From Petasospora fabianii (lineage: Eukaryota; Ascomycota; Saccharomycetes; Phaffomycetales; Wickerhamomycetaceae): a DNA stretch of 64,000 nucleotides. The DNA lies in NCBI GenBank assembly GCA_022641835.1, contig CP048715.1:372001-436000 (forward strand), in the 5' to 3' direction. The position numbers and the translations under genes were made by a program. Shown piece after piece: positions 26,682-59,376 of the stretch; the first letter of the stretch is position 1; each line of letters begins with the position of its first letter. The notes under the pieces are model-generated. The model was given only the letters and a program-made list of their open reading frames with translations, was not told the origin of the DNA and did no database searches.

Positions 26682-28496
26682 ATGCCTGAAGCTGACATCA
26701 AACTTGACACTGGAATGTTAAAGCGCCTCTTCGCAGAGGAGAGCGTTTGGACCACCAAGCCTTCGATCAAAGTACAAGTAACAAACTTCAAGGTCATCCC
26801 CAACGAAGCCGGCAAAAGACTTCGTCTTTTGATCAGTGACGGCTCTTTCACCACTCATGCTGTCATCAGACCAGAAGGTGTGGAGAAGGCAGAGTCATCC
26901 GGTTTGGCCAAGTCATCTGTTATTACTATTGATGCCTACGATATCGAGAGAATGGGTCAGGCTAACAAGCACGTTGTGATTATTTCTGATTTGACCGTCT
27001 TGCACACCACCGTGGGAAAGCTTGGCGGTAACCTCACAGGTATTGACGACTATTTCAAGTCTCACCCAGAAGAGGATCTTTACGTTAGCACTGAAGCTGA
27101 GTCTACTCCAACTCCTGAAGTTGCTGCCCCAGCAGCTCCAGCGGCTACCTCAACAACCGGCCCACAACGTTTTGCTGCCCCACAGGGCAACAAACCAGCC
27201 AATTTGTATGCCATTGATCAGCTGTCACCATACCAGAACACATGGACAATCAAGGGTCGTCTCTCCTATAAGGGTGACATGCGTACTTGGTCCAACCAGA
27301 GAGGTGAGGGTAAGCTCTTCAATGTGAACTTCCTCGATGAGACCGACGAGATTAGAGCCACCGCCTTCAACGAAAATGCTGACAAGTTCTACAACTTGTT
27401 GCAAGAAGGTAAGGTGTATTATGTTTCCAAGGCTAGAATCCAGCCAGCCAAGCCACAATTCTCCCACCTCAAACACCCATACGAGCTCCAGATGGACAGA
27501 GACACAGTTATTGAGGAGTGCCAGGATGCGGATGGTATTCCAAAGTTGCAATATGACTTTGTCAAGCTTTCTAAGGTGCAGTCTCTCGAAGCTGACTCTA
27601 TCATTGATGTTGTTGGTGTTATCAAGGAGGTGAATCCAGCCTTCCAGATAACATCCAAGGCTGGTAAGTCATACGACCGCCGTGACATCACCCTTGTTGA
27701 TGATTCCCAATTTGCTGTATCCGTGGGATTGTGGAATAAGTATGCCAAGGAGTTTGATATCCCAGAGGGTACTGTTGTTGCCATCAAGGGCTGCAAAGTC
27801 TCGGACTTCAACGGTAAGACATTGTCTCTGACCCCTGGTGCTTCTGTGTCGGCCAACCCAGGTACTCCAGAGGCCTACACAATCAAGGGCTGGTATGACG
27901 CCCAGGGCCGAAACGAGCAGTTCCAGAGTTTGAAGAGTGAGATGACATCGAAGAAGAGTTCTCTTGCTGATCGTAAGACCATTTTGGAGGCACAGAACGA
28001 GGAGATCGGTGCCGGTGACAAGCCAGCTTACTTCTCCACTAAGGCGACAGTCAACTTTGTCAAGACTGATAACTTCAGTTATCCAGCTTGTTTGACCGAA
28101 GGCTGTAATAGAAAGGTCACTGAGCAAGGTGATGGTACCTGGAGATGTGAGAAGTGTGATATGAACCACGCTGTGCCTAACTACAGATATATCTTGACGT
28201 TGTCTGTCATGGACACTACAGGACAGATGTGGCTGACACTCTTTGATACCGAGGCTACCACGGCCCTTGGTGTGAATGCTAATGAGATGCACAGATTGAA
28301 AGAGGATGACCCTGACAAGTTCTCCCAGACCATGAGTCAATTGCAGATGAATGAGTACGACTTCAGAGTCAGAGCAAGAGAGGACAATTACAACGGAACT
28401 ACCAGAATGAGATACAACGCTGTCGGTATCAACAAGGTCGACTACACCGCCGAGGCAGAATTCTTGAGTCAAAAGCTTTTGAAGTTGTCCACTTGA
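26682..28496 (+). CDS. RFA1: Replication protein A large subunit
   Basis: This is the 70-kDa subunit of the RPA heterotrimer, which coats single-stranded DNA in replication, repair and recombination. The 604-residue protein shows the N-terminal protein-interaction OB fold (~1-105), a Pro/Ala-rich linker (~130-165), DNA-binding OB folds A (~185-290, starting DQLSPYQNTWTIKGRLSYKG) and B (~300-415), and the C-terminal fold C with the four-cysteine zinc ribbon CLTEGC...CEKC (~469-491). The frame starts at the first ATG. Length is close to the S. cerevisiae protein (621). The upstream MluI boxes suggest G1/S transcription. Confidence 0.97.
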   Translation: MPEADIKLDTGMLKRLFAEESVWTTKPSIKVQVTNFKVIPNEAGKRLRLLISDGSFTTHAVIRPEGVEKAESSGLAKSSVITIDAYDIERMGQANKHVVIISDLTVLHTTVGKLGGNLTGIDDYFKSHPEEDLYVSTEAESTPTPEVAAPAAPAATSTTGPQRFAAPQGNKPANLYAIDQLSPYQNTWTIKGRLSYKGDMRTWSNQRGEGKLFNVNFLDETDEIRATAFNENADKFYNLLQEGKVYYVSKARIQPAKPQFSHLKHPYELQMDRDTVIEECQDADGIPKLQYDFVKLSKVQSLEADSIIDVVGVIKEVNPAFQITSKAGKSYDRRDITLVDDSQFAVSVGLWNKYAKEFDIPEGTVVAIKGCKVSDFNGKTLSLTPGASVSANPGTPEAYTIKGWYDAQGRNEQFQSLKSEMTSKKSSLADRKTILEAQNEEIGAGDKPAYFSTKATVNFVKTDNFSYPACLTEGCNRKVTEQGDGTWRCEKCDMNHAVPNYRYILTLSVMDTTGQMWLTLFDTEATTALGVNANEMHRLKEDDPDKFSQTMSQLQMNEYDFRVRAREDNYNGTTRMRYNAVGINKVDYTAEAEFLSQKLLKLST

Positions 28497-31400
28497 ATAC
28501 GAATATTTTGAGACATGGTTCACTACCAATACTTTGTTATGATTTCACAACGTTTGCGGCAGGGTCAAAGTCTGTTTAACGTTCCTTCATTTCTCCACTG
28601 TATTTACTCTCGCTTGTGGCCAACCGGACTTGTAGTTGCAGTTCGTCAAAGCAACGTGCTGCGATTCGATGTTGGTGTGAGAAACGAACAGTGTCTCACA
28701 TGGCTTTGCTTGTGCTGTTTTTTTATTTCCTTCTTCCGAATTTTGATGCCCGTTACTGTGCTTATGTGTAGTTGGTTGTCGAATTGTGCGTGTGATTAGA
28801 GCCTGGTGAGGGTGCTGGCTACGACTTGCGGGTCACTACGTGTCACGCCTACCTGTAAGAGAGGACTGTGGTAGCTGAATGCCGAACAGAGGCAGCGGGA
28901 GAGCCAACGGGGTCGCTAAAGTTTCAAACGCTGCGCACCCGCTCACTTTGATTTCGGGAGCTCATGAAACAACCTGGTCGATCTAGTGTGCGGTTTATCA
29001 TATGAGAACTAATTCTAGTCACTGGGCCATCAAAAGGTGAATTTTGTTCTGAGCTGTCCACGGCTCCTCGGCATCACCACGGAGATAATAATTTTTTTAT
29101 ACGGCGCATGAGCGCTTAAACCCAAGCCGTTCAGAAGTAGTTCAAGCTCATACTACCGCTCTCGTGGTTGAAGCTAGAGTTGGATTTGTGTTGTTCAGTT
29201 AACGGAAAGAGATAAGAGCGCATCAAAAAATATGAAACCTTACCATAGATCACATGTGTTGCAGTCTGTAGTTCATCGTGTTCCCTGCAAGTGTGCAGCC
29301 GAGGTCAAGAATCATCATGAGTCTACCATTGCCGCATGCGAGCGGTCTGAAGTTCGACTCATTGGGGGTATGGGGGATACAGGAGACAAAGGACGAAACC
29401 TTTCAGGATTGAGTCGGCGATGGACAGAAAAATCGATTGCCAGACAGCCGCCGTACACCTTTTATCGCCTTTTGTACATCGCTGAAGCGTGCATGGGCCG
29501 TTGACAACGCAGCGAGCGGCATGTATGGAGGTGGACAACAAGATTTAGGCGGAAATGTGGAAGCAGTGGCTCGGTTAGATCAACGATAAGCCTCTCAATC
29601 TCCACTCCGTGTTTCAGCAGGGCTATTTGGCGCAGACATCGGGTTGACTGCGGTGGAATCTTTCCACAGGGCCTTGTAGTGTTGCCCCCCTCCGGCACAG
29701 GCACAGGTACAGCTCCTCGTAAAGAAGCCCATCCCATCGAAGGTTATTGGGAAGCCTACATGCTACGTGTTATTGCTCTCCTGAGAGCCGCTATTGCCAA
29801 CTATCGCAGGTCTAGTCAAAGCTGTTGTCATCCACCGCCGAGGTTGGTTTCTCTACAAGATCTGATGCGATATGGTGGACATTCCCTTTTTTGGGGATCC
29901 ACTGCTCTCTGCAAATGGGGGCTGTAGATCATGCACGGATATGCAATGCAATATTCTCGGTTCGTATTCTCGCCTTTCTCTACCCACGATACCCTGAATT
30001 ATTTACCCATTTGACTCAATTGAGTGACCACGTTTCCCCAAAAATCCTCTCCACTGCTTGCAAGACCGTAGCATGATGTATCAGCTTGAGACTGGACTGG
30101 TTGTGGAGGCCGGCGCACAGGGAACATACTCTCCGGGAAGATATGGAGGACCGCAAGGAGATTTTAGCGAACTAGACCTCAGGTCTCGAGCGTAATGGTT
30201 ATATTGATGAGCGTCTCCCTTCACAATTCCTTGTAAGCTGAACGATTACTAGAGCGTTTGGAACAGAGGATCGTAGAGACCGATTGATAAGAAGCAATAG
30301 GAAACGAGAGGCGGTTAGGTAACTCGTCAATACACGAGCAGGCATGTCTCAGGATTCGCGATGATCGAATGTATACTGCGTCACCATCGTGTGGCAGGCA
30401 CTCAAGGAGACCAGGTTATCACTTAGCCGTCAACCAAATTCACCTCAGGCGATACGATGTACACTTACATATTCACTCAACTGAAGGTCCCTTGCAACTT
30501 GGTTAGCAGTTAGGTCGTTGAGTAGTCATCGCAGAAGTCCACGTCACCACCCCCTGTCGACAAGCAATGCATTTCGCAGAATCCAAAATCACATAGACGA
30601 GCCTTGGACTGGATTAAAGAAGGAAACGTAACATGTTCTGATCATCAAGACATTGTAAGACGTGTGTGTACTCTCTAAGGTACCTGTGTGCTGGTAGAAC
30701 GGATCAAAGTCCCTCAAGTTAGCCGGGTTGGACAAAATACTAAAAAAGCCCCACTTCCAATTGAACCGGACCAAAGCAGAGGGGGCGGGAACACTGAGAG
30801 ATGCGCCCGACACCGAGACAGCATCAGAATACTGGCAAATATCAAGACCTCATATCTAATTGATCCGGAGTTGCTAATACCACTTCAATTTATTTTAGCG
30901 CTACCAACCGAGAACAGTCAACTTTGGGGTGATAGAGGCGTGATGTGGACAACTTTTTGCCCACTTGCAGCAGGAGAAACATCAAGCCACACATTTGAAG
31001 CTAATATGTGACATGGGAATTCACGACTCGAACCAGATAGATTTTGGATCACTGCTCTTCTCTTCTGCTTGAGCAAGTAACACTACTACACTATACGTCA
31101 TTCCACTCGAGTAGTTTCTAGAGCTAGATACAAACATACCACCAAAGCCAGCCTTCCACACCTGATGGTATTGTGTGGTGCTTCTCGAATAGAAGTGGTC
31201 CAGGAATAGTCAGTCATGGACAGCCTTCCCGAAGTTCTTCAAGATCTCGACTGCTCGCCTCGCATGTGGACATGTGCACTCCAACACATGCCTGCTTGCT
31301 TTTTATCAGGAAAAGAAACAGCACCACCTCGATCGTTCTTAACTCCGGCTACCAGCAGCATACACGGATTGACCCATACGTCGCAGTGATTTGAAGAATT

Positions 31401-31802
31401 CTTTTCTCTCAGAGCAGTACTGATTTCTCATACCCCGTCCCCCAAGAGAACGTTTCCGGTCCTGAAGAGACTTCTGAGCGCCTTTACAAAAAAGAAATTT
31501 TGACCGTTGAAGGAGAAGCAGCACGATGGTGCAGATCACGGCTTATGATGCAGAAACACGCATGCCCATCTTGATCACATCCAGGGCTTCGTGCGTGATC
31601 GCTTGTTCTTCCCGTGTTTTGGGCCGTGGTATGTGTGCAGCCAGGCGTACACCTGTGATAATATGCTTCTAGAAGTAGATCAAAATCTGGAGCTTGATCC
31701 CCCCCAAAAGCCCTACCAGGCGGACGTCAGGGGTGGGGGGAAAACAAGCAAATTTAACCATTGCCTATCCTTAACCTTTTAAAAAAAGGTGCTTCCAAAG
31801 AG

Positions 31803-31836
<34 letters not shown>

Positions 31837-32057
31837 CCCTACGATTTTATGGTACAAACTAGGTGTCCTCTGATGTACATACATTGTGGGTTTACATACT
31901 ACAGACTTTTAATTAGATCCCTACACTGAAGCTCGACCAGCTTCCAGTGAACTATTACGTCTCAATTCTTGCACTTGATCACACCCAATCTCATCCCAGT
32001 TCATCACACATACACAGATTCCAATCATCCATCATCAGTCTTAGATTCTCACACATC
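28497..32057. promoter_or_regulatory. Long gene-free stretch upstream of the adhesin gene
   Basis: About 3.56 kb lie between the RFA1 stop and the adhesin ATG. No open frame here resembles a protein; the longest are ~60-110 codons and of random composition. I found no tRNA, snRNA, LTR or transposase remnant. The first few hundred bases are RFA1 3' sequence; the rest is best read as an unusually long regulatory region, as known for FLO11 in S. cerevisiae. A dinucleotide repeat lies about 220 bases before the ATG, and homopolymer runs flank it. Confidence 0.45.
31804..31834. repeat. (CA)n microsatellite
   Basis: An uninterrupted CA dinucleotide run of about 15 units lies upstream of the adhesin gene. 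It is probably length-variable between strains. Confidence 0.95.
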
Positions 32058-35000
32058 ATGAGGTTTTTAAGTGCTGCCTCATGGGCTATCGCCTCACTGA
32101 TGAGTACAGGGTTTGTTTCTGCTTCTCAGACCTGTCCCACGAACTCCATCAGCACGACGTGTACTAATTTGAACTTCAACTACCATGCTAAAAACTCCAA
32201 CACGCCTCCGGCTGACATATCCATCACATCTGTCACCTGGATCAGCGGTACCACTTATCAGGTTAACATTCATTTCTCTGCCAATGTTCAGACAATGTCT
32301 TTGAAGTCTCTTTCTGAGCTCAAAATCATGGGGAGCATCCAGAAAGTCCTGTACTCTTACAACAACAAAGTTGCTCTCATATCGGACCCAAACACCTGGG
32401 ATGCATCAGTCAGTGTCTCTATCTCACCAGATGCGCATGGTAACGTCTTAATGCCATCATTTCAGGTTCAGTACGATTGGTGTTCTGCTGGTGTTACCGA
32501 TAAGTCGGAGTGTAGTTCTTGGCACTATGCTACTTCTTACGACTACATCACTGGTTGTAACAACTATGATAACAACGGTAACTCGCAGACTGACTCTCCA
32601 TCTTACTACTGGCCAGATCAGTGCGCTGCCCGCACGACTACTTCTCAAATGTCGCCATTGTTGTCTGCATCTTCCACTTCGAAGACATCCTCAACAACCT
32701 CTACTTCTTCAACACCTACCACTTCCACATTGAAGACCACCACCTTCTCGCCTACACAGGCAACTACATCCTCTACAGCTAACACTGGTACGGTGGCTTG
32801 CTACGCCCAGTGTGGTGGTTCTGGTTATTATGGCGCAACAGGCTGTGCTAGCGGATGTTATTGCCAGTCTGTGAATCAGTGGTATTACCAATGTACGCCA
32901 GGTGCAACAACAACCGCGCAGACCACTTCTTCATCCCTGTATTCCACAACATCGAGCTCTGCGGTGAAGACAACACCCATAACTAGCTCGTCAACGACCT
33001 CCACCTCCTCGAAACCAACACCCACGGTGAAAATATCCACCAGCTCTTCAAGCTCTGCACTGACAACTACCGCTAATACTGCTACAGTGGCTTGTTATGC
33101 ACAATGTGGTGGATCAGGTTATACGGGTGCTACTAATTGTGCCAGTGGATGCTACTGTCAGTCTGCCAACGATTGGTATTATCAGTGTACCCCTGGTACG
33201 TCGACTTCCTCAGTGATTTCCACATCGACCTCTACGTTAAAGACTTCTACCAGCGCTACCACCATGTCCTCCACATCGGTGACATCCTCCTCAACTAGTG
33301 CCAATACTGCTACAGTGGCTTGTTATGCACAATGTGGTGGATCAGGTTATACGGGTGCTACTAATTGTGCCAGTGGATGCTATTGTCAGTCTGCCAACGA
33401 TTGGTATTATCAGTGTACTCCAGGTTCGTCTACGACTTCACGGGCCACCGCTTCAGGGATTTTCACCACGAGTTCTAAAATGATGTCCCCCCCTATGAGT
33501 TCCTCTGTGGCAACGACGTTGAGTTTTACGGTGATCACTTCGTCAACACAAACAATTTCTTCCTCTTTGCCTATCTCAGAAACTTCTATGGTGTTGACTT
33601 CTCCTGTACAGATTACCTCAGTGGCAGTTGCGTCAAGTTCATCGGTAGTGGTCTCGTATATACAGAGCAGTAATTCGGTGAGTACTCTAACAAGCACTAC
33701 TGGAACAACCTCCTCAGGTCTCATCATCACTTCTTCATCCCAGACAACGCCACATTCAAGGCCTTCAGCCTCACCGGTGCAGACCTCGACTACCAGCTCC
33801 TTTAAAATTGACCCGAGAAGCACGTACTTCTCCACGATTGGTAAGACAAATACCTCCACAGAAACGACTGGGCACGGATTTGGGAAGTCTTCTACTTTCT
33901 TGGCAGGGGCATCCTCAACCGTACCTTCTTCCGCGACCCCAATCGTGACTCCCAACTCTGGCTCAACATCCGATGTGATCTTCTCATCAGTGAGCCCTTC
34001 CCTGGGCACAATGACTGCTGCGGCTGCATCCAGTAAGGATGCCTCCCCTGTGATTTCGTCTTCTACGGGAACAGCTGACTTTGGCTCCTTCTCCAGCTCG
34101 CTGGCGTCGCCCGATTATTCCTCCGGGACAACCACCGTCTTGAGCTCATCTTCTGCAACAACAACTGAAACTACTGCAACCACCACCACCACCACCACCA
34201 AAGAGGCTACTGCCTCACATGGTTGCGTTGTGTATGCTACTGCTAAGTGCTCGTCCGACTCTTTCACCGACACCAGCGGTACCAAGAACATTCCATATGC
34301 TGATATATCTGTCACTACTGTCACCATCTTGGGAGATGGAACCTACAAGGTTACCATCAAATTCGTTGCAGGAGAGCCATTAATGTCCAGGTCTTCTCTC
34401 TCTTCGTTGAAGATTATTGGTAACATTCAGAAGACCCTGTACTCATACAACCAGGATGTTGTTTTGATTACGGATCCATCTGAGTGGGAGACTGATCTCG
34501 TTGTTTCGGGTGTTCAGGGGTCTTCTTCGAGCCAGATCTGCATGCCATTATTCCAGATTCAGTACGATTGGTGCGCCGAGGGAGTCATAGATTCAAGTGA
34601 GTGCTTTTTTTGGAAGTATGCAAAGTCCTATGACTATGATGTTGGTTGTACATCACAAACCAATTCTCCAGCTTATTGCTGGAACATCCAGGATGCTTGT
34701 GCTGTTTCTCCATCCAAGGGTATTTCCTACCAGGTTACTTCTACTGAAACCAGTTTATCTCAGGGGGCTGAGTCGTCTTCTCAGGATACCCCTGAGATGA
34801 GCACTACCTCATCGTCTCACGACTCTTCTACTCTGGGTTCTTCTTATGAGGGTGTTGGGTCCTCTTCTCAGGGTATCTTCTCTTCTTCATCCCTGAAGGT
34901 TTTGACTTCCGCATCTTATGTTACATCACAGACTAGTATGGACACGACTCGTGCCTCTTCTAATGGTGCTCTCTCTTACTCCGAGACAATGTCGGAGGAC

Positions 35001-38000
35001 GTTCCATCTGCCTTTGAGACCATTACTTCTGTTCCAAACCATGCCTCCACCTCTGCTTCAGAGTCCTCTATACCTTGGTATAAGTCATTTTATTCTTCCA
35101 TGTTCTGGTCTTCTGAGGAGAGCATTACTTCTTCATCACATGATGCCCCTTCATCTCGTTTCTTCGAGTCCTCTGCTTCAGTTGATCTCTCATCTGCCTA
35201 CGCGCCGTCCTATGCTGCCTCATCTGGTCATGCTTCTGAGGCCTTGTCTGTTCCAGTTGCCTCCTCATCTGGTTCCTCATATGTACTAACCGGGTCCTCC
35301 TTTATTTATAGCTCCTTTGAGTCCAACTCCTTCTCTGTCACCTCCTATCACGAGTCTTCTGCTCTAACTGGCTACTCCTCTGCTCATGGCTCATCTTCTG
35401 TTTATGCCTCTGAGGAGTCTTCTGAGCCTACTGGCTCTTCTTCTGGCTACGTCTCTGAGGAGTCTTCGGAACCATCTGATTCGTCTGAGGAGTCCTCTGA
35501 GCCAACTGGCTCTTCATCCGAGGTTAATGATGGCTCATCGGGCTTCCAGTCCACTGTTACTTGGGCGGGTGGGTCAACTGTTGTGACACTTCCAGATCAA
35601 TCCTCTTCGGACGCTGAGGGTATATCCTCATCGCTCGATTATTCTAGCCGTGAGGCTGAGCCAACTGGCTCCTCTTCCGGCTACGTCTCAGCGGAGTCCT
35701 CTGAGCCAACTGGCTCCTCTTCCGGCTACCTCTCTGAGGAGTCTTCTGAGCCAAATGGCTCTTCTTCTGAATACGCCTCTGCTGAGTCCTCTGAGCCAAC
35801 TGGCTCCTCTTCCGGCTACGTGTCTGAGGAGTCCTCTGAGCCAACTGGCTCCTCTTCCGGCTACGTGTCTGAGGAGTCCTCTGAACCAACTGGCTCCTCT
35901 TCCGGCTACGTCTCTGCGGAGTCTTCTGAGCCAACTGGCTCTTCTTCTGCATACGTCTCTGAGGAGTCTTCTGAGCCAAATGGCTCTTCATCCGAGGTTA
36001 ATGCTGGCTCATCGGGCTTCCAGTCCACTGTTACTTGGGCGGGTGGGTCAACTGTTGTGACACTTCCAGATCAATCCTCTTCGGACGCTGAGGGTATATC
36101 CTCATCGCTCGATTATTCTAGCCGTGAGGCTGAGCCAACTGGCTCTTCTTCTGCATACGTCTCAGCGGAGTCCTCTGAGCCATCTGGCTCTTCTTCTGGC
36201 TACGTCTCTGCTGAGTCCTCTGAGCCAACTGGCTCCTCTTCCGGCTACATCTCTGAGGAGTCTTCTGAGCCAACTGGCTCTTCTACTTCTTCATCACATG
36301 ATGCCCCTTCATCTCGTTTCTTCGAGTCCTCTGCTTCAGTTGATCTCTCATCTGCCTACGCGCCGTCCTATGCTGCCTCATCTGGTCATGCTTCTGAGGC
36401 CTTGTCTGTTCCAGTTGCCTCCTCATCTGGTTCCTCATATGTACTAACCAGGTCCTCCTTTATTTATAGCTCCTTTGAGTCCAACTCCTTCTCTGTCACC
36501 TCCTATCACGAGTCTTCTGCTCTAACTGGCTACTCCTCTGCTCATGGCTCATCTTCTGTTTATGCCTCTGAGGAGTCTTCTGAGCCTACTGGCTCTTCTT
36601 CTGGCTACGTCTCTGAGGAGTCTTCGGAACCATCTGATTCGTCTGAGGAGTCCTCTGAGCCAACTGGCTCTTCATCCGAGGTTAATGATGGCTCATCGGG
36701 CTTCCAGTCCACTGTTACTTGGGCGGGTGGGTCAACTGTTGTGACACTTCCAGATCAATCCTCTTCGGACGCTGAGGGTATATCCTCATCGCTCGATTAT
36801 TCTAGCCGTGAGGCTGAGCCAACTGGCTCTTCTTCTGCATACGTCTCAGCGGAGTCCTCTGAGCCATCTGGCTCTTCTTCTGGCTACGTCTCTGCTGAGT
36901 CCTCTGAGCCAACTGGCTCCTCTTCCGGCTACATCTCTGAGGAGTCTTCTGAGCCTACTGGCTCTTCTTCCGGCTACGTGTCTGAGGAGTCCTCTGAGCC
37001 AACTGGCTCCTCTTCCGGCTACGTCTCTGAGGAGTCCTCTGAACCAACTGGCTCCTCTTCTGCATACGTCTCTGAGGAGACCTCTGAGCCAACTGGCTCT
37101 TCTTCTGCATACGTCTCTGAGGAGTCTTCTGAGCCAACTGGCTCTTCTTCTGCATACGTCTCTGAGGAGTCTTCTGAGCCAAATGGCTCTTCATCCGAGG
37201 TTAATGCTGGCTCATCGGGCTTCCAGTCCACTGTTACTTGGGCGGGTGGGTCAACTGTTGTGACACTTCCAGATCAATCCTCTTCGGACGCTGAGGGTAT
37301 ATCCTCATCGCTCGATTATTCTAGCCGTGAGGCTGAGCCAACTGGCTCCTCTTCCGGCTACGTCTCTGCGGAGTCTTCTGAGCCAACTGGCTCTTCTTCT
37401 GCATACGTCTCTGAGGAGTCTTCTGAGCCAAATGGCTCTTCATCCGAGGTTAATGCTGGCTCATCGGGCTTCCAGTCCACTGTTACTTGGGCGGGTGGGT
37501 CAACTGTTGTGACACTTCCAGATCAATCCTCTTCGGACGCTGAGGGTATATCCTCATCGCTCGATTATTCTAGCCGTGAGGCTGAGCCAACTGGCTCTTC
37601 TTCTGCATACGTCTCAGCGGAGTCCTCTGAGCCAACTGGCGCTTCTTCTGAATACGCGTCTGAGGAGTCTTCTGTACCAACTGGCTCCTCTTCCGGCTAC
37701 ATCTCTGAGGAGTCTTCTGAGCCTACTGGCTCTTCTTCTGCATACGTCTCTGAGGAGTCTTCGGAACCATCGGATTCGTCTGAGGAGTCCTCTGAGCCTA
37801 CTGGCTCGTCTTCTGGCTACGTGTCTGAGCAGTCCTCTGAGCCACCTGGCTCCTCTTCCGGCTACGTCTCTGGGGAGTCCTCTGAACCATCTGGCTCTTC
37901 TTCTGGCTACGTCTCTGAGGAGTCTTCTGAGCTAACTGGCTCTTCTTCTGCATACGTCTCTGAGGAGTCCTCTGAGCCAACTGGCTCCTCTTCCGGCTAC

Positions 38001-40713
38001 GTGTCTGAGGAGTCTTCTGAGCCAATTGGCTCTTCTTCCGGCTACATCTCTGAGGAGTCTTCTGAACCAACTGGCTCTTCTTCTGAATACGCGTCTGAGG
38101 AGTCTTCTGTACCAAGTGGCTCTTCATCCGAGGTTAATGATGGCTCATCGGGCTTCCAGTCCACTGTTACTTGGGAGGGTAGGTCAACTGTTGTGACACT
38201 TCCAGATCAATCCTCTTCGGACGCTGAGGGTATATCCTCATCGCTCGATTATTCTAGCCGTGAGGCTGAGCCAACTGGCTCCTCTTCCGGCTACGTCTCA
38301 GCGGAGTCCTCTGAGCCAACTGGCTCCTCTTCCGGCTACCTCTCTGAGGAGTCTTCTGAGCCAAATGGCTCTTCTTCTGAATACGCCTCTAACTGGCTCC
38401 TCTTCCGGCTACGTCTCAGCGGAGTCCTCTGAGCCAACTGGCTCCTCTTCCGGCTACCTCTCTGAGGAGTCTTCTGAGCCAAATGGCTCTTCTTCTGAAT
38501 ACGCCTCTGCTGAGTCCTCTGAGCCAACTGGCTCTCTTCCGGCTACGTGTCTGAGAGTCCTCTGAGCCAACTGGCTCCTCTTCCGGCTACGTCTCTGGGA
38601 GTCCTCTGAACCATCTGGCTCTTCTTCCGGCTACGTCCCTGCGGAGTCCTCTGAACCATCTGGCTCTTCTTCCGGCTACGTCCCTGCGGAGTCCTCTGAA
38701 CCATCTGGCTCTTCTTCTGGCTACGTCTCTGAGGAGTCTTCTGAGCCAAATGGCTCTTCTTCTGGCTACGTCTCTGAGGAGTCCTCTGAGCCAATTGGAT
38801 CTTCTTTTGCATACGTCTCTGAGGAGTCCTCTGAGCCAACTGGCTCCTCTTCCGGCTACGTCTATGAGGAGTCTTCTGAACCAGCTGGAACATCGTCCGT
38901 CTTTGTGTCTAGATTCTCGGACTTGCAATCGACGACGACCATGGCGGCTGTGTCCACTGTGGTTACATTAGCTTCTGAGACACCCCCGCCCGACCTATCT
39001 ACTAAAGTTTCAGATTCATCGAAGTCATCCTTTGAGGAAGGTCCTCGCTCTGATCACAAACCATCCAGCGGTTCTACTTCTTCTGTCGTAACTCCTGAAG
39101 CTGAATCATCTGATGGCATTTCTGCGTCGACTCTGAGATCTCGCCATGCAATGAGCTCATTGGTTCCGTCATCTACTGCTGCCGATGTCGTGTCAGGCGA
39201 ACCTTCAAGCACTGACATTGCCTCTCACACTAAAGCTGCTTCTACAGCAGACGGAGGTCTCAACCCATCAAGTGTGGACTCTATTGATACTTCCATGGTT
39301 ACTGCTGTGACTTCAACATCCGATATTTGTCTCGTTGCGAGGTACGAAACCGCCACACAGAACGTGCTTACGGTGGCTCCTGCTTATGATCACTATAGTA
39401 GTATCACGGGCTGGACTGACTCTACAACGGAGATGCTCTTCATTACAACTAGATGTTTGGAGAGCTCTGAGTTCACCTCTATCTCTTACTTCTCTAGCTA
39501 CCTTTCTGGTCTGGATGTGACTTATGTGACGAGTGACCTTGTCATAACCTTTATCAGTACTAGTACATTAAAGGTTACACAGACTTCTACTGGTACTTTG
39601 ATGATCTCAACAGCTTCAAATAGTGCCCCCGCTACATTCTCTGGGACTGATCCAGTTACTCGCATTGAAACAGTTACTACTACGGGATCTAACGGCCTGC
39701 CATCTACAGTTATAGTTACGGAGATTGCATCAACAAGCTCTGCTATCAACCAGGGATACTGTGCTGTTACCAATGCTTACACATCTGTTGACGACTCTGG
39801 CTCATCTGTGATTGTCACTAAATCCAGCACCGTCCTTTGCGTGGGAACTACAACATTCAGTGATGCTATTGCGACTTCCAGTATGTCTCGAAAGACTATC
39901 ACCGACGCAGAGGGGAATGTTCATACCTTGACGCTCTCTGAAGAGCCGTCATTCATACCGGGATTTACTCCTGCAGAGACTGGTGCCTCGAGTTTAGTGG
40001 AGACTACTCCAGGAAGCTCTTTCACTACTCCTACTCCTTCAGGTGTTCCATCTCGTGATCCTCCTGGGAGTATTCCTTCTACAGGTGTCCCGTCTAGTGC
40101 ACAGCCTGGCGGGGTTCCTACTGGTGCGACAGTTACATTCACATCGAACGGTTCGATCGTTTCTACTGTTGTATCTTCGGACCCTGCAACCGAATCGACT
40201 ACCTCTTTGTCTACCACAAACATTTTGAATTCCGTTCAGACATTGGCTGCTGATGGAACTGCTGTCACGTCCACTGCTTCTGTTCCTCCAGTTCAGTCTA
40301 CACCTATCGGTTCCCCATCTGCGCCTACCTCCATCTCCCCGGCTATGGCCTCATCCGACGCTACAAGGAAGACGTCTTCAGCCATTGAGACTACAAAGCC
40401 TTCCAGTGTTGTAACCGGTACTGACTCTGATGGCTCTGTGTACACATTCACCGTTACGGAGACTTCGTCTGCTGTTACTCCGGCTGGTGCTCGCAATACT
40501 GTGGGTACTGTTACCGATGGAGCGCCGGGCCAGACCGACTCGACAGCTGCTGCGGCTGATGGTGCGACTGAGACTTCTTTTTCCGCTGATGGAAGCGGTA
40601 CCGATATTCCAGTTATCGAAACAAGCAGTGGTGCGGGTTCGCTTTCAATACCTTTCATGAAGGTGTTCTTGTCCACTGTTCTTATTATTCTCACTCTCTT
40701 TTCCACGATTTGA
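32058..40713 (+). CDS. Giant Flo11-domain / CBM1 cell-surface adhesin (frame disturbed in repeats)
   Basis: The ATG at 32058 begins a signal peptide (MRFLSAASWAIASLMSTGFV). Then come a Flo11 domain (~32124-32630; key pieces VTWISGTTY, SLKSLSELKIMG, FQVQYDWC, GCNNYDNNGNSQTDSPSYYW), three CBM1 modules in Ser/Thr linkers (~32785-32900, 33080-33195, 33310-33425), a long Ser/Thr linker, a second more divergent Flo11 domain (~34213-34710), a Ser-rich stalk with 15-residue SSEPTGSSSGYVSEE-type repeats (~35390-38900), a conserved C-terminal segment (~39320-39940) and a GPI signal ending in a hydrophobic tail (~40645-40710). Flo11 domains mediate homotypic cell-cell adhesion; CBM1 binds cellulose. The first frame stops at 38432 and the C-terminal frame opens after about 38600, because of four length changes at 38390-38600. 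With them set aside the product would be about 2,890 residues. Function is inferred from domains; no S. cerevisiae gene has this architecture. Confidence 0.85.
32124..32630 (+). other. Flo11 domain 1
   Basis: Encodes the N-terminal fibronectin-III-like adhesin domain. It shares with S. cerevisiae Flo11 the WIS-x-TTY strand, the SLK-x-L-x-x-LKI strand, MP-x-FQ-x-Q and GCNNYDNxGxSQTD, with paired cysteines near both ends. It lies directly after the signal peptide, the usual position. Confidence 0.9.
32785..33427 (+). repeat. Three CBM1 cellulose-binding modules
   Basis: Modules at ~32785-32900, ~33080-33195 and ~33310-33425 each encode the CBM1 pattern YAQCGGSGYxGAT followed by C-ASGCYCQS and a WYYQC end. 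All six cysteines and the aromatic residues that form the flat binding face (first Y, then W and Y near the end) are kept. Copies 2 and 3 are almost identical over about 120 bases, differing by one silent change that I see; copy 1 is more diverged. Each is followed by a Ser/Thr-rich linker. Confidence 0.88.
34213..34710 (+). other. Flo11 domain 2
   Basis: A second, internal Flo11-like domain with its own cysteines: VTTVTILGDGTYKVTIKF, SSLSSLKIIGNIQKTLYSYN, MPLFQIQYDWC and a CTSQTNSPAYCW end. It is clearly homologous to domain 1 (shared SLKI/KIMG, IQK-x-LYSYN, QIQYDWC) but quite different in DNA, so the duplication is old. Confidence 0.85.
35126..35671 (+). repeat. Segmental duplication in adhesin, copy 1
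   Basis: This 546-base block recurs at 36284-36829, exactly 1,158 bases (386 codons) away. I see one difference: G at 35292 versus A at 36450, changing Gly to Arg. The near identity indicates a recent in-frame duplication. Confidence 0.9.
36284..36829 (+). repeat. Segmental duplication in adhesin, copy 2
   Basis: Second copy of the 546-base block at 35126-35671. It places a non-repetitive segment (SRFFESSASVDLSSAYAPSY and following) in the middle of the repeat stalk for a second time. Confidence 0.9.
38273..38508 (+). repeat. Perfect 118-base tandem duplication that shifts the frame
   Basis: Bases 38273-38390 and 38391-38508 are identical. A length of 118 is not a multiple of three, unlike every other repeat step in the tract, and the first reading frame ends shortly after the junction. 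This is where the frame disturbance of the adhesin gene begins. Confidence 0.9.
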
Positions 40714-40991
40714 TGACCTTTTAGCCTTTTGTTTTTCTTGTTATGCTGTTGTTGTTTGATTTGTTCTTCGGACTATTTTTATGTCATTTTCATGTCACCC
40801 GTGATGGGATGAGAAATCGTTTTCTTCATACTCTATCTGTTATTATATTAGGTACAAGCGATTGTTTTTATATGCATTACACAAGTTTACTTTTATTACA
40901 CTGGCATAGGCAGAGCTGACTCTCATAATAGACCCATTGCTTAGTTCTCATTACCTGATATATATAGACGTAGAGGCGCATTGAATCCTTC
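40714..40991. other. Convergent 3' region, adhesin / URN1
   Basis: An AT-rich 278-base spacer lies between the stop codons. It contains T-rich runs and a TATATATAG sequence near 40961, as expected for two yeast 3' ends. Confidence 0.4.
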
Positions 40992-42305
40992 TCAGCTCAA
41001 AATTTGGCTTGTCAATTCCATTATGAGCCGAATTCTCGTCTTTACATCAACAACAAAGTATTTTGTAGCAAACTTGAGACCCTCAGATATATCCAATGCG
41101 TCTTCAATTCCACAGAGGGTATCGTATGCTTCATCATCAGTCATGACATCAACCTTGTTAAGATCGACAGCAGACAGCACATCCTTAGCACCATTAGCAG
41201 ACAGAACATTCTTTTTGAATATCTTCACTGATAAGTGTGTCTTGAAGATTTTCTCTCGTTCAGTCTGATTTTTCTTTGTGAATATGACATACTCCTTATA
41301 AGCTTTCTCTTTCTCACGATCACTGAGCGAGCACTTATCCAGCTCAATCTTCCACTTCTTCTTGAAATCGAGATAAAATCTATCACATTGCTTGCTCTCC
41401 AGTAGTCTCATAAACTCCACAAATGGTGGATCACTCCTTCTCGTAGTGATATTGGCCTCTTCGGAAGTCGTCCTTGCGGAGATGGCGAGGGAGCACCATG
41501 TATCAAACAGTCTCTTTCTCTCCTTGTTGCTCTCCACTTCAAGGAATCTTGGGTCGTCGATGACCTTGAGAGATTCAATTTCCCACGTACTGTATGGGTC
41601 CAAAGATGATTCTTGGAGCATTTTAAGGAATAAGATCTCGGCTTGTTCGATGTCATGCACGTCATTAGTATTAGCGTTAGTGCTGGTTGTTTCGACCTCT
41701 TCATCCGAGGAGATACCGTCTAGGTCACCAAGATCAAAGCCATTTCCAGTATCTGAGGACGTATTTGAATGGTCTGAATCTGATTCAAGATCAGCTGAAG
41801 GAACCGGTGTCTCATCAGCTGGGTCGTCTGCTTTTGAGGGAGGAACTTCAGAGCTGCCGCGCTCCTCTACATCTTCGTCGTCCTCCTCATCATCTTCATC
41901 TTCATCTTCACTCGAAGAGTATCCGGATACAAGCCCTGTGATCTTGGGTACAAGCGGCCCTTCTACTGGTGATATCTTTTCATCTTCTTGAGGGTCTGGA
42001 TGGACCTCATCCTGGATAGCTTGAGATGAAGGCTCTTCGACGCTATGTGTAACGGCAGTGGACAACAGGACATTTGAGGCATCGTCATCAATGGCGAGAC
42101 CTCTAGCCTTAGCTGTGAGGAGCAGTAGTGATCTTCGATCAACACGACTGATGGCATGCCGTAGCTCATCGTCGTCTGCCCTCCAAACGGACTGTTTCGT
42201 GGTTCTGTTGTGATAGAAGTGCGAGCCATCGGAGACGACAATGGTGCTCCACTCGGAGTCTGGCAGGTCAAGTTTGAACATGGGCCGTACCATGGTACTA
42301 TACAT
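40992..42305 (-). CDS. URN1: Urn1-like WW/FF-domain pre-mRNA splicing factor
   Basis: S. cerevisiae Urn1 associates with the spliceosome (NTC-related complexes). The N-terminus holds a WW domain (EWSTIVVSDGSHFYHNRTTK then SVW, ~18-40), followed by a long acidic low-complexity region with Asp/Glu and Ser runs. The C-terminal half holds an FF-type domain (~265-310, LDPYSTWEIESLKVIDDPRF, then NKERKRLFDTWCSLAI) like the single FF domain of Urn1. I take the first ATG, at 42303-42305, giving 437 residues; the ATGs at 42293 and 42281 are also possible, since the family starts close to the WW domain. It is divergent from PRE9 across about 210 bases. Confidence 0.82.
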   Translation of the reverse strand: MYSTMVRPMFKLDLPDSEWSTIVVSDGSHFYHNRTTKQSVWRADDDELRHAISRVDRRSLLLLTAKARGLAIDDDASNVLLSTAVTHSVEEPSSQAIQDEVHPDPQEDEKISPVEGPLVPKITGLVSGYSSSEDEDEDDEEDDEDVEERGSSEVPPSKADDPADETPVPSADLESDSDHSNTSSDTGNGFDLGDLDGISSDEEVETTSTNANTNDVHDIEQAEILFLKMLQESSLDPYSTWEIESLKVIDDPRFLEVESNKERKRLFDTWCSLAISARTTSEEANITTRRSDPPFVEFMRLLESKQCDRFYLDFKKKWKIELDKCSLSDREKEKAYKEYVIFTKKNQTEREKIFKTHLSVKIFKKNVLSANGAKDVLSAVDLNKVDVMTDDEAYDTLCGIEDALDISEGLKFATKYFVVDVKTRIRLIMELTSQILS

Positions 42306-43755: not shown

Positions 43756-44001
43756 TTAGTTGATGGTGATGGTAGTTTCAGTTTGTGATGATGTGGTTGG
43801 AGTGACGTTACCGTTACAAGTGTCGATGAAAGTGACAATCTGGTAAGTGGTATAGAGGAGGAGGGTGGAGCCACTATTACCACCCTGCATGGTGTTAACG
43901 ATGGTGTTTGTTGTGGGAGATGGAGTCTCACAAGATGTCACTGTCTGGGCGTATGTGGCAGCCACAAGGGAAGCGAGGGTGAAAAGAGTGGAGAAGTGCA
44001 T
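43756..44001 (-). CDS. Small secreted Thr/Ser-rich protein
   Basis: From the ATG at 43999-44001 the frame encodes 81 residues: a clear signal peptide (MHFSTLFTLASLVAATYA), then a short Thr/Asn-rich mature part with two cysteines (TVTSCETPSP and FIDTCNG) and a Thr-rich end. There is no GPI-attachment tail and no repeat. The T-V-T-S-C-E segment is reminiscent of small yeast wall mannoproteins such as Ccw12, but the similarity is too short to prove kinship. A TATA box (TATAAAAAG) stands 82 bases upstream, supporting a real, possibly strongly expressed gene. The frame extends upstream through a further ~19 codons that look like leader sequence rather than protein. Confidence 0.65.
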   Translation of the reverse strand: MHFSTLFTLASLVAATYAQTVTSCETPSPTTNTIVNTMQGGNSGSTLLLYTTYQIVTFIDTCNGNVTPTTSSQTETTITIN

Positions 44002-46944
44002 TGTTGTATAGTGTGGTTGAAGTGAAAATGGGAAGGGTGAGGGCAGTGTGGGAGACAATTGATGAGATGGACGAAACGCTTGCTTTTTATACAGTGCTAA
44101 TATTTGGTTCTATGCTTGCCTCATCTCAAAAAGCTGATACATTGTGTTTATTATACATTGACGCCCCGTGCCCCAAGAGCCAACGACGAGAGTATTCTAC
44201 ACTTTCCACTTTTGTCCTGAAGAATGGAGTTCGGCCTGCAGCGGATGCCACAAGTGGCACCAGAAAAGCCCGGGGAAAGGTGAGATTTGAGAGTAAAATT
44301 TGTAAAATAGGGCCTCAAAACAACAAGGTGCAGATGTAGCGAGCGCCGGATCTGGCGCTGTGCCGTTGAGAGCTCCATTGTGCTGTCCCATTTAGGTAAT
44401 CGTGATGAGTCCGAGCACCACCTACGGAATTCTGCTATCGAAAGCAGGAAAACACCACATGTCACAGGATAGCGGAGATGATACATGCTTGATTGAATGG
44501 AAGGTAATAATGAAGCATGAGACGTCATATCTTGTAAAAGATGGAAGAAAGACACAATAGGGGTTCATAGAGGCCGGTTGTGTGATCCATGATGAAACTA
44601 AGTGATTAACTGAAGAGCAGCACTACCAGTGTAACTCATCATCTAATAAGATAAACCTCTTCTTCCAGTGCTTTAAACTCTCTCAGTGCTTAAAACTCTT
44701 CCTATCTGGCTAATGTGTGCACTTATTGTTTGGACCCTTGTTTCTAGGGACACTTTATAGTATGCAGTCAATTTGAAAACCATAGCGCCTGGGTTAGGAA
44801 TAAACATCGGGTTCTCACAAGGTTACACCTCAACACCTCAGATATTATGTGGCTTTAAACATAGTCCCCACTATTACCAATCTCTGAACCGTAAAAAACC
44901 AAATGAGAAACAGAGCGGTGACAGCACACTCCACGGATAGGCGAATGTTCCTAGCTGTAAGAGATTGACGCTTTCAACTGTATTACTGCGAGGGGCACAA
45001 CAGGGCCAGAGGAGTCACAGGGCTAAGCCCTAACACATCACACAGAAAGTCCTGTTGCCTCAGATCTCTTGAGCAGTTCGAAAAAAAACAAGTGGTAATG
45101 GATACTAGTCCAGATGATATCTATAGGTTAGAACTTCCTAGGTCCAGGCTGAGTGCGCTCCGCTATTTGATTGAAACGCGTTGAGTCGCGTAGGCGAGGA
45201 CAGAGCAGGACGACGTACCGGCGATCTGTATCCAGGGGGTATGTCTGGACATCTCATGAAACTGACATGTCACTAGTACGGTCTGTACTGAGAGAGAAAA
45301 AGTGACAACATTTTATCGACCACGATGAACGACTAGCTGAAGACGTAAGGGCTAAACAAACAGGAACTCTTAACTCTCTCTTCATGCTTCACGTGTAAAA
45401 CGATTTGTCTCCGCATCGGGACGCGCTCACGTCTTGCGAAGCATAAACAATAGCGCACTAGCACCTTGAACAAGAATACGTATGTACAATTATTCCGAAT
45501 ATTCAAGATGGCAGAGATGCACCAATGTTGCCGTGTCTCTCTCTTTTTTTTTTTCTCCTGTTGTTCATTCTCTCTTAACCGACATTGAGCGAGGCAGTGT
45601 TATGTCTACGACTTTGTCTATGAATTGTCTAGGCGAGCGACATCAACAGGGCTTGCAGGGCTTGCAGGTCTCGGGAGGTTGGCGTTGTTGACAATTTCAT
45701 TGGGAGGCCAAGGGCCAAGGTTGAAGCACAGCCCACATACCCTGATAAGCGTGTTGAAATGCTTCAACATATAGTGTGTGTGGTTGCGGAGCTTGGTGTA
45801 GGGCCAAGCGTTTGCGACTTTCAGGCTCCTTGGCTTGAAGGGAGGGATACAGCGAGAGAGGCCCGAGAGCCCCGAAGGCAGACTCGATAACAGCGTCTTA
45901 ACCTTCAACTGCACAATTTACCAAACAATCCATATTAGCATCGAACTACCTAATTTGAGAGTCGAGTCAGCCCTAGATCTACCCGCTCCCCCTGCGACAC
46001 GTCTGTCAAACAGTCGTGTTTGTGAGTGGTTGGTGCTTGTCCGATTTCAAGCCCAATTTCGCATGTCCTGTGTCCCCTGGGCAGCTTTCTTTTTCTGATT
46101 TCCACTGCATTTTTTTTTCTGATGCGTCCGGTGCCGCCGCATCGGGATCCCTGCCGTAGCTAAGAAGGTCACCCGGCTGTGTCGCGAATGCGCTCGATAT
46201 GGACATAATGACAAAAAATAGCAACGGGACAGGGGAGGGGTGGGAAGGAGAGAGAGAGGGGACACGGAGAAACCGAGAACAAACAAAAAAAAAAAAAAAG
46301 AAGTATTCTGCTGTGTGTACAGCAACGCGCCCAAATCCAAAGAAATCACTTCAAACAAGTGACCACCCTCTTCTACCCTTCAGCAGGCCCCGTTTACCAC
46401 CACCTCAAACCACAACCTGCCAAGGACACCGCACAGCGCAGTCTTCACGCACACATTTCACCAACTCACACTTCTAACACGGCCAACAACCTTACAGCGC
46501 GTGATCCTGACACACAGAGCTAGCCGCCCGTGTTTCGTCTCACCGTTCAGCCAACAAGGAAGCACAGCCTTTGATCCCCTTCGTAAAAGCACAAGGAATC
46601 ATCACTACGTATCTCCATCTTCCCTTAAAGGCATTCTCACACAAAGAGAATTCTATCCTCATCTCTTGGACTTGAACCGCCGGGCTCATTCTCTGATTTC
46701 TGTCTGATACATCACCGTGTCCCTGTTTTGCAAGTTGATCTCACCAAAACACACGCACGAGAATCCCCAACACTACTACACTCTTTTTCCCCCTCTTCCC
46801 GCCTCAAGTCTCTGAGATATAGATACTCTTAGGAACTACACACGCTGATTATCTTGTCTTTCATCACTCGCTTTTGCAACACACACCCCACACAACACAC
46901 TATTTACCAAACCCGCTGAGCAACAATATATCAACACATTTATA
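44002..46944. promoter_or_regulatory. Long gene-free divergent region upstream of KRE6
   Basis: About 2.9 kb lie between the small secreted protein and KRE6. Nothing in six frames resembles a protein, and I found no tRNA or snRNA signature. The last 550 bases (46380-46944) are rich in C and A with few G, typical of a long yeast 5' leader. An A-run lies at about 46286-46300 and a short GGGCTTGCA duplication near 45650. Both flanking genes act at the cell surface; the region may hold a complex promoter or an unrecognised non-coding RNA. Confidence 0.4.
44083..44091 (-). promoter_or_regulatory. TATA box of the small secreted protein gene
   Basis: The minus strand reads TATAAAAAG 82 bases upstream of the start codon. 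Confidence 0.5.
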
Positions 46945-48999
46945 ATGTCTACAAGAAATTTGACGGACCGCTCACCAGTGGGTAACAGCACAGAGTCTGA
47001 TGACTCCGAACCAAGAAACCCATTCATTCAAGATGAACTCAACTCCCTTGAGGAGACAAACTCGAGCGAGGGCTCTAGCAGTTCCAACTTGAACAAGAAG
47101 CCAGCAAAACCATTCATTGACTATAACGGTTACTACAGTCAACATGGCTCTTCCAACTCTCTCAACCAAGTTACAAACTCTTATTCTTCATCGAACTTGT
47201 CTGCCCTCAACCAACAACAGCTCAGCATCGCCAAGGATGTGTACTCTCCACCAGAGTACGACAGGTACCCTTCAATCGGAGGGTCCAGAGCTGCCTCCAT
47301 GGCCGCATCAATAAACTCACAAGCTAACCTACTTGGCCACCAGAAAAAGAACTCTCTCATATCACACAACTCATCTAACAATTCTGACACTTCTTCGAAT
47401 CCATTCCTGGTTGATGCAGACTTCAGTCCGTTTGGTGGATACCCAGCATCTTCATTCCCATTGCACATTGACGAAAAGGAGCCAGATGACTACTTGCATA
47501 ATCCGGATCCAATTGCTGATGCATACGCCGACAAACACAGATTCATGAACGACTTGAAGAATATGGATAAGAGATCCACTGGTGGTCTTCTTGGTCTGCT
47601 GTTCTTGTTCCTCGGTGCCATTGCATTGTTCATCATTCTTCCAGCTCTCACATACTCTGGTGCATTGGACCACGAGAAAGTTGAAAATGTCATTGAGATC
47701 TTGACATACTACGAGTATCCAACATTGTCTGCTATCAGAAAATCGCTCATAGATCCAGATACCCCAGAGAGTGCATACACCAGAGACTCTAAGGATGGTG
47801 ACTCTTGGAAACTTGTTTTCTCGGATGAGTTCAATGCCGAGGGCCGTACTTTCTATCCAGGTGATGACCAGTTCTGGACAGGACCAAACATCCACTACGA
47901 TGCTACTAAGGATTTGGAATGGTACGACCCAGATGCTGCCACTACTAAGAAGGGTTACTTGGAACTTAGAATGGACGCATTTGAAAATCACAACTTATTC
48001 TACAGATCTGGTATGCTCCAGTCATGGAACAAGATGTGCTATACTCAAGGTATTTTGGAGGTGTCTGCTCAGTTGCCAAACTATGGTAATGTTACTGGTT
48101 TGTGGCCAGGTATCTGGACCATGGGTAACTTGGGTAGACCAGGTTACTTGGCTTCTACTGAAGGTGTCTGGCCGTACACTTATGAATCCTGTGATGCCGG
48201 TATCACCGCTAATCAGTCTTCCCCTGATGGTATCTCTTACTTGCCGGGTCAGAAGTTATCTGTCTGTACATGTGATGGTGAAGACCATCCAAACCAAGGT
48301 ACTGGTAGAGGTGCTCCAGAGATCGATGCCCTGGAAGGTGCTGTGGATACCACCGTCAAAGTCGGTACCGCTTCTCAATCTATGCAGATTGCTCCATTCG
48401 ATATTTGGTACATGCCGGACTACGAATTCATCGAGATTTACAACCAATCGGTTACTGCCATGAACACATACGCTGGTGGTCCATTCCAACAGGCTGTTTC
48501 CGGTGTCTCTACTTTGAACACTTCTTGGTATGAGTATGGTGACACTGGCGGTCATTATTTCCAGAAGTATGGTTTCGAATACCTCAACGACAACGATGAC
48601 GGTTACTGCATGTGGTTTGTCGGTGACAATCCAACCTTCACCGTGTACTCCACTGCTCTCCATCCAAATGGTAACATTGGCTGGAGAAGAATTTCCAAGG
48701 AGCCAATGTCCATCATTTTGAACTTGGGTGTCTCTAATAACTGGGCCTACATTGATTGGGCATCCCTCATGTTCCCAGTCACCATGAAGGTTGACTACGT
48801 TCGTGTTTACCAACCAGAGGGTGAGGAGAACCTCACTTGTGATCCAGAGGGATACCCAACTTATGATTACATCCAAAACCATCTGCCTGCTTACCAGAAT
48901 CCTAACTTGACTAGCTGGGCCATGGCTGGTTACGAGAAGCCAAAGAACATCTTGACCGGTAACTGTAAGAGTTCTAAGTACTCCCTCAAGAACGATTAG
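46945..48999 (+). CDS. KRE6: Beta-1,6-glucan synthesis protein Kre6/Skn1
   Basis: This type II membrane protein of the secretory pathway is needed for wall beta-1,6-glucan. The 684-residue product has a ~210-residue cytoplasmic Ser/Asn-rich N-terminus, one transmembrane helix (~213-238, GLLGLLFLFLGAIALFIILP) and a lumenal glycoside hydrolase family 16 domain (~270-660). The catalytic motif is intact: E459-I-D461-A-L-E464. Other Kre6 signatures include WKLVFSDEFNAEGRTFYPGD, LWPGIWTMGNLGRPGY and GYCMWFVGDNPTFTVYS. Several NxS/T sites are on the lumenal side. S. cerevisiae has the paralogues KRE6 and SKN1; a single ancestral gene is likely here. The upstream leader appears long. Confidence 0.95.
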   Translation: MSTRNLTDRSPVGNSTESDDSEPRNPFIQDELNSLEETNSSEGSSSSNLNKKPAKPFIDYNGYYSQHGSSNSLNQVTNSYSSSNLSALNQQQLSIAKDVYSPPEYDRYPSIGGSRAASMAASINSQANLLGHQKKNSLISHNSSNNSDTSSNPFLVDADFSPFGGYPASSFPLHIDEKEPDDYLHNPDPIADAYADKHRFMNDLKNMDKRSTGGLLGLLFLFLGAIALFIILPALTYSGALDHEKVENVIEILTYYEYPTLSAIRKSLIDPDTPESAYTRDSKDGDSWKLVFSDEFNAEGRTFYPGDDQFWTGPNIHYDATKDLEWYDPDAATTKKGYLELRMDAFENHNLFYRSGMLQSWNKMCYTQGILEVSAQLPNYGNVTGLWPGIWTMGNLGRPGYLASTEGVWPYTYESCDAGITANQSSPDGISYLPGQKLSVCTCDGEDHPNQGTGRGAPEIDALEGAVDTTVKVGTASQSMQIAPFDIWYMPDYEFIEIYNQSVTAMNTYAGGPFQQAVSGVSTLNTSWYEYGDTGGHYFQKYGFEYLNDNDDGYCMWFVGDNPTFTVYSTALHPNGNIGWRRISKEPMSIILNLGVSNNWAYIDWASLMFPVTMKVDYVRVYQPEGEENLTCDPEGYPTYDYIQNHLPAYQNPNLTSWAMAGYEKPKNILTGNCKSSKYSLKND

Positions 49000-58872: not shown

Positions 58873-59376
58873 TTAAGCAGAGATGGTTGGAATACCACCA
58901 GACTTTGGAGTGGACTTAGAGCCGAAGGCACCACCTCTAAGCAAGGAGTAAGTGGAAAGGAATCCAGAGAAGAGGAAAGTGAAGAAGGCAAAGAAGAGGA
59001 AGGCAGTAGAAGCCTGAGCCTTTCTGCATCTGTCAGTGGAGCCCTGGGTAATGCTGTTGTGATCCAAGTAACTCTGGTTGGTACAAGAGTGAACTCTGAT
59101 ACCGACAGCCAATGCAACAGCAGAGGCAAAAGTGAAGATGAGGTTAAGAACGTCAAGGATAAGCAAGATCAATGGCCAAGCGAGGAACTCAATGAAGTTG
59201 GCAAGGAGACCATAGATAGAGGAGAAAACGATACCAAAGACGGCAGCGAAGATGGCAAAGTTAACTCTAGAGTTGCTGTGCTCCTGACCGTGGATAAGGG
59301 AGCCGGTGAGACCGAGGACGATCACGAGGCAGGCAAAGTTGAAAGCACGGAGGCCAATGTCGATGAACTTCAGCAT
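58873..59376 (-). CDS. NCE102: Nce102, eisosome-associated MARVEL membrane protein
   Basis: Nce102 is a four-span plasma-membrane protein of the MCC/eisosome that senses sphingolipids and was first linked to non-classical export. From the ATG at 59374-59376 the product has 167 residues, close to S. cerevisiae Nce102 (173). Matching segments are RVNFAIFAAVFGIVFSSIYG, LLANFIEFLAWPLILLILD, FTFASAVALAVGIRVHSC, NSITQGSTDRCRKAQA and the C-terminal GGIPTIS. Four hydrophobic helices are evident. The frame extends further upstream only through leader sequence. A TATA-like TATATAA lies about 130 bases upstream. Codon choice is biased, suggesting strong expression. Confidence 0.95.
   Translation of the reverse strand: MLKFIDIGLRAFNFACLVIVLGLTGSLIHGQEHSNSRVNFAIFAAVFGIVFSSIYGLLANFIEFLAWPLILLILDVLNLIFTFASAVALAVGIRVHSCTNQSYLDHNSITQGSTDRCRKAQASTAFLFFAFFTFLFSGFLSTYSLLRGGAFGSKSTPKSGGIPTISA

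Follow-up and report, generated by a model that had tools for sequence, protein, structure and literature searches.

Two open reading frames on the forward strand, ORF A and ORF B, make up a putative adhesin locus in the window, by which we mean the whole 64-kb stretch of DNA that was analyzed (Table 1). The first-pass annotation had described a Flo11 domain, three CBM1 modules, and a second Flo11 domain in one locus. Searches with PF10182 and PF00734 found all of them (E = 1.1e-46 for the first Flo11 domain, 8.6e-21 for CBM1, and 4.2e-32 for the second Flo11 domain), and all lie in the single unbroken ORF at 32058-38432, which begins with the ATG at 32058.

Table 1. Features of the adhesin locus, with positions in the window
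Feature	Position	Strand	Content or basis
ORF A	32058..38432	+	2124 codons + stop; leader, Flo11 domain 1, three CBM1 modules, Flo11 domain 2, most of the stalk
Signal-peptide-like leader (aa 1-23)	32058..32126	+	Hydropathy plus a V-S-A motif of cleavage type
Flo11 domain 1 (Pfam aa 35-181)	32160..32600	+	PF10182, E=1.1e-46; PDB 4uyr, E=3.2e-31; 5fv6, E=2.7e-27
Ser/Thr-rich linker	32637..32798	+	Composition: S 30%, T 36% (aa 196-245)
CBM1 module 1	32799..32903	+	Pfam and PDB sequence search (core)
CBM1 module 2	33093..33197	+	Pfam and alignment (core)
CBM1 module 3	33321..33425	+	35-residue core the same as module 2; 113/117 bases alike over a wider stretch
Ser/Thr-rich spacer from CBM1 array to Flo11 domain 2	33426..34211	+	Sequence
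Flo11 domain 2	34212..34712	+	PF10182, E=4.2e-32; 48.8% identical to domain 1 (79/162 columns)
Ser-rich acidic stalk	34713..38904	+	45-bp (15-aa) repeats; six GFQSTVTW elements
Frame-broken patch	38390..38600	+	Four reading-frame changes; first at a 118-bp duplication junction
ORF B	38566..40713	+	Stalk end and Ser/Thr-rich C-terminal part; first Met is residue 126; lacks a separate leader
GPI-type tail	40624..40710	+	Small residues, then a hydrophobic end (hydropathy)

A secretion leader and a GPI signal on one chain are typical of Flo11-type adhesins. The leader here is mildly hydrophobic (Kyte-Doolittle mean of 1.18 for residues 3-18), and the mean is 2.06 over the last 18 residues of the GPI-type tail, with the end at 40713. 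Hydropathy therefore suggests both signals, with the frame-broken patch between them. The signal peptide and GPI-type tail that had been annotated in one locus were recovered to that extent, but the tail is out of frame as sequenced, with four breaks in 38390-38600. ORF B was ruled out as a separate secreted protein, because its first Met comes only at residue 126.

A Pfam scan of 32058-38384 and ORF B found no catalytic domain and, among hits with E values up to 1, no PAN/Apple domain. The sub-cut-off rows in the locus were ACOX_C_alpha1, Big_3, ArAE_1, and TnpW. There was no Rfam match at gathering cut-offs in 28400-41000 and no match from a tRNA scan of the whole 64-kb window. A collection limited to prokaryote genomes returned 91 pattern matches, none of which encodes a relative by tblastn, a result that does not bear on yeasts.

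By gene content, the surroundings of the adhesin are an ordinary yeast stretch. Pfam matches were found for 18 of the 20 other ORFs scanned in the window. The neighbors include a REV1-type polymerase, pyruvate kinase, PRP39, COQ5, a TRP-type channel, acetyl-CoA synthetase, replication protein A large subunit, a proteasome subunit, KRE6/SKN1, VMA22, RNase P p30, and NCA2. An ORF at 58873-59640 on the reverse strand may encode an Nce102-type membrane protein. A short one at 43756-44109, also on the reverse strand, has a Thr-rich body as well as a leader-like stretch and perhaps encodes a small secreted or wall protein. The KRE6/SKN1-type gene for beta-glucan synthesis (46945-48999, 851.6 bits in Pfam) is about 6 kb 3' of the adhesin. 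GPI wall proteins are usually anchored to beta-1,6-glucan. The linkage may be chance. The GC content is 46.4%, and CTG presumably encodes Leu, which it fits at conserved sites. The 3561-bp gap upstream of the adhesin is no evidence of a FLO11-like long promoter, given that the gene calls leave two more gaps of similar size (3529 and 4025 bp), in part through uncalled genes. A (CA)15.5 tract at 31804-31834, approximately 220 bp 5' of the ATG, is a possible length-variable promoter element.

Flo11 domains and the repeat stalk

Both Flo11 domains scored far above the 25-bit Pfam cut-off for PF10182, domain 1 with 159.1 bits and domain 2 with 111.8 bits. A PDB search with domain 1 matched four distinct sequences, all named Flo11, and the best were 4uyr (40.0% identity) and 5fv6 (38.0%). 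We take 5fv6 to be K. pastoris Flo11A, that is, the same protein as 5fv5. A structure model of domain 1, built from a two-row alignment, had a pLDDT of 46.6; it was unusable and was discarded.

Structures 4UYR and 5FV5 are the Flo11A domains of S. cerevisiae and K. pastoris, respectively (PMC7156268). The S. cerevisiae domain has sixteen conserved surface aromatics, twelve of which are involved in adhesive growth, and changing Y111, Y113, Y118, Y133, W144, and Y196 jointly to alanine abrogated single-cell adhesion (PMC7156268). Our comparison took in those six residues out of the twelve. Domain 1 keeps three (Tyr at 111, 113, and 196, with Ala, Ser, and Leu at 118, 133, and 144). Domain 2 keeps two (Tyr at 111 and 113), with Val, Ser, Cys, and Cys at 118, 133, 144, and 196. 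It has Cys at two aromatic sites of band II, where none of the three residues checked is kept. However, the K. pastoris Flo11 domain, which is functional, has aromatics at three of the same six positions. Therefore, position-by-position loss is compatible with function. Flo11 domains from several yeasts confer adhesion (PMC7156268, PMC8621652).

The stalk is 36% Ser and 6% Thr. Its 15-residue motif matched 27 times in ORF A and, by a slightly looser pattern, six times in ORF B, so the repeat stalk of the earlier description is present. No Pfam family matched 34713-38384, and the flocculin repeats PF00624 and PF13928 had no Pfam match there or in ORF B. Those repeats occur in only some members of the Flo11-type adhesins and are optional for the class (PMC8621652). 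As defined in the same source, a Flo11-type adhesin has PF10182 near its N terminus, above cut-off, and a Ser/Thr-rich repeat stalk, and we found both here. Within 35126-36829, stalk segments of 379 and 166 bp each have an exact copy 1158 bp away. Exact copies of this length read as a recent internal duplication.

CBM1 modules

The Pfam scan placed CBM_1 (PF00734) on three stretches of ORF A with 74 bits, and a rescan of 32637-34211 alone gave 81.6 bits, again on three stretches (cut-off, 20.6 bits). Module 1 aligned without gaps to the CBM1 of T. reesei Cel7A in a PDB sequence search (1cbh; E = 1.9e-7). By 1cbh numbering, every module retains the cellulose-face residues Y5, Q7, N29, Y32, and Q34, and Trp replaces Y31. 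The function of Y5, Y31, Y32, Q7, N29, and Q34 in CBM1 is given in PMC3532174, and subsets of the binding residues are named in PMC4577117 and PMC8010709. Cys 8, 19, 25, and 35, which form the two disulphides, are also present. The profile match, the four Cys, the aromatics at 5, 31, and 32, and Q7, N29, and Q34 together mark the modules as CBM1. Each module has additional Cys at 4 and 23, which could make a third bridge.

At E values up to 0.01, module 1 matched 12 distinct PDB sequences. Each of the 12 is a plant-wall enzyme or the CBM1 of one, and the enzymes concerned are cellulases, cellobiose dehydrogenases, a glucuronoyl methylesterase, and a xylanase. The five weaker rows, up to E = 1, were a cellobiose dehydrogenase, a xylanase, and three ubiquitin hydrolases.

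The structure model of CBM1 had a middling pLDDT of 69.2. A fold search with it returned 21 matches with E values of at most 10, and not one reached E = 0.001. Ranks 1 to 7 were three Cel7A CBM1 entries and four cellobiose dehydrogenase chains, each with a probability of at least 0.93, and the best was 1cbh (E = 0.056, TM 0.61). The other 14 rows, mostly cystine-knot peptides, had probabilities of 0.16 or less. The fold search lends weak support to the CBM1 identity.

Modules 2 and 3 have the same 35-residue core and are identical at 113 of 117 bases, and their duplication is evidently recent. Between modules 1 and 2, 32 of 117 bases are different, yet only 5 of 39 residues are. When we placed 32 changes at random in 20,000 trials, the mean number of changed residues was 20.4 and the minimum was 12, so no trial gave five or fewer. 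Although this null takes no account of transition bias or codon use, it lies far from the observed value. Therefore, the CBM1 modules have evidently been under purifying selection since the old duplication that separated modules 1 and 2.

The frame-broken patch in the stalk

The first-pass annotation was silent on frame breaks in the stalk. The stalk motif stays in one frame up to about 38389, and the frame first shifts where the two copies of an exact 118-bp tandem duplication (38273-38508) meet. Three further changes follow before about 38600, with one intervening stretch that is a single motif. By eye, each of these last three is a one-base shortfall against sister repeats. As sequenced, ORF A stops at 38430-38432, and the GPI-type end in ORF B is out of frame with the adhesion domains. 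The frame is open from the end of the patch to 40713. Across the 600 codons of the non-repeat C-terminal part, from about 38900, this frame has no stops, whereas the other frames have 18 and 37 on the same strand and 23, 12, and 74 on the opposite strand. An intron over the patch was ruled out, because the strict splice-like patterns GTA[TA]GT, GTATG, GTAAG, and TACTAAC had no match in 38300-38700 and a loose branch-point pattern matched just once, at 38389.

The four changes fall within about 210 bases, between open ORFs and alongside an exact duplicate. This suggests a fault in sequencing or in the assembly of a poorly resolved repeat rather than decay, and we infer that the break is an artifact or very recent. 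If the gene were truly broken in this strain, then its product would stop in the stalk at 38432, would lack a GPI signal, and would be secreted or lost. The four frame changes and the stop can be read that way, and FLO11 stalk repeats are said to recombine often (PMC8457840, citing Verstrepen 2005). However, we consider a broken gene unlikely, given that damage is confined to so small a part of an 8.7-kb locus, beside the duplication, and that the 3' ORF has stayed open for about 600 non-repeat codons. An assembly chimera of two adjacent Flo11-type genes might also explain why there are two Flo11 domains and why the repeat array is imperfectly resolved. This is very improbable: both domains and the CBM1 array are in one unbroken ORF, more than 3 kb upstream of the suspect patch, and the two domains share only 48.8% identity. 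In any case, the five folded modules are all 5' of the patch and are unaffected by the frame breaks.

Proposed function and comparison with known systems

We propose that the locus probably encodes a Flo11-type, GPI-anchored adhesin with a CBM1 array that tethers cells to cellulose. After export, the C-terminal tail would anchor the protein to the wall. The long, repeat-built stalk would keep the N-terminal modules away from the cell, with the three CBM1 modules at its tip between the two Flo11 domains. The CBM1 array would bind a flat crystalline polysaccharide, most likely plant cellulose, and three weak sites would add up through avidity. Flo11 domain 1, and less surely domain 2, would bind Flo11 domains of kin cells. 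We infer export, anchoring, and cellulose binding from the features described above. The broken stalk frame and the incomplete set of aromatic-band residues count against this reading.

The CBM1 modules may take ligands other than cellulose. If the array bound chitin or beta-glucan in the walls of yeasts or other fungi, then the protein would serve adhesion between cells or between fungi instead of tethering the yeast to plants. Flo11 domains already mediate cell-cell contact (PMC7156268), and CBMs as a class bind chitin and beta-glucans too (PMC3532174, PMC4577117). However, the face residues agree with those of the cellulose-binding Cel7A CBM1, and the PDB matches of module 1 up to E = 0.01 were without exception to plant-wall enzymes or their CBM1. 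Therefore, we regard a fungal-wall ligand as improbable, and a cellulose tether as the most likely mechanism on present sequence evidence.

The adhesin interpretation in the first-pass annotation is partly borne out, by the domain identities, the single ORF, the intact cellulose face, and purifying selection on the CBM1, but such fusions are already on record. Adhesins of the Flo11 plus CBM_1 kind were listed in 2018 and 2021 (PMC6308950, PMC8621652). CBM_1 is named in the legend of Fig. 2 of PMC6308950, among 13 architectures of the Flo11 family. Table 3 of PMC8621652 has proteins of Candida inconspicua (A0A4T0X4H6), Pichia kudriavzevii (A0A099NZM2), and Wickerhamomyces anomalus (A0A1E3NVU9), each with one Flo11 domain and two or three CBM_1. 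The adhesin described here has in common with them the joining of Flo11 to several CBM_1 modules. However, one Flo11 domain is listed for each of them, whereas two flank the three CBM1 modules here. Multiple Flo11 domains in one protein are known from K. lactis, C. lusitaniae, and C. intermedia (PMC8621652, PMC6308950). We did not find the order Flo11, three CBM1, Flo11 in the accessible text of PMC6308950 or PMC8621652, and in the latter the comment on these CBMs is limited to bringing enzymes near substrates. Among the papers listed by a search of openly accessible journal articles, none tested CBM1 function in such an adhesin. As judged from its sequence, which supports this well, the adhesin is a further member of the listed kind, with the order Flo11, three CBM1, Flo11.

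The Flo11A proteins of S. cerevisiae (4uyr) and K. pastoris have the Flo11 domain in common with the locus but differ in part of the aromatic-band residues. To our knowledge, each has a single Flo11 domain and no CBM1. The T. reesei Cel7A CBM1 (1cbh) shares the module and its binding face with the adhesin. However, it belongs to a cellulase, whereas we found no catalytic domain in the adhesin, which also has two more Cys per module. In a comparison of 60 fungi and 7 oomycetes, CBM1 was concluded to accompany wall-degrading domains in fungi and adhesion domains in oomycetes (PMC3532174). The yeast Flo11-CBM1 adhesin is an exception to this rule, though one already on record. If cellulose is bound by its three CBM1 modules in living cells, then a budding yeast would be employing a part best known from cellulases purely as glue.

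A parallel may be CBEL of the oomycete Phytophthora parasitica, a surface protein that is nonenzymatic, carries two CBM1, and takes part in adhesion to cellulose. Knock-down of CBEL affects adhesion to cellulosic substrates (PMC3532174). The likeness would be one of function only. In CBEL, CBM1 is joined to PAN/Apple, and the adhesin, in which we found no PAN/Apple domain beside the CBM1, falls outside the CBEL-type CBM1-PAN class. More tentatively, there might be a division of labor, with Flo11 domain 1 recognizing kin, the CBM1 triplet anchoring the colony to plant cellulose, and Flo11 domain 2, with Cys at two of its band II aromatic sites, in another role. Such a protein, a separately evolved yeast counterpart of CBEL, would link the choice of partner cells to the choice of substrate. 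The cellulose tether itself, if it exists, would be a direct basis for the attachment of yeast to plant matter, parallel to that provided by CBEL in oomycetes.
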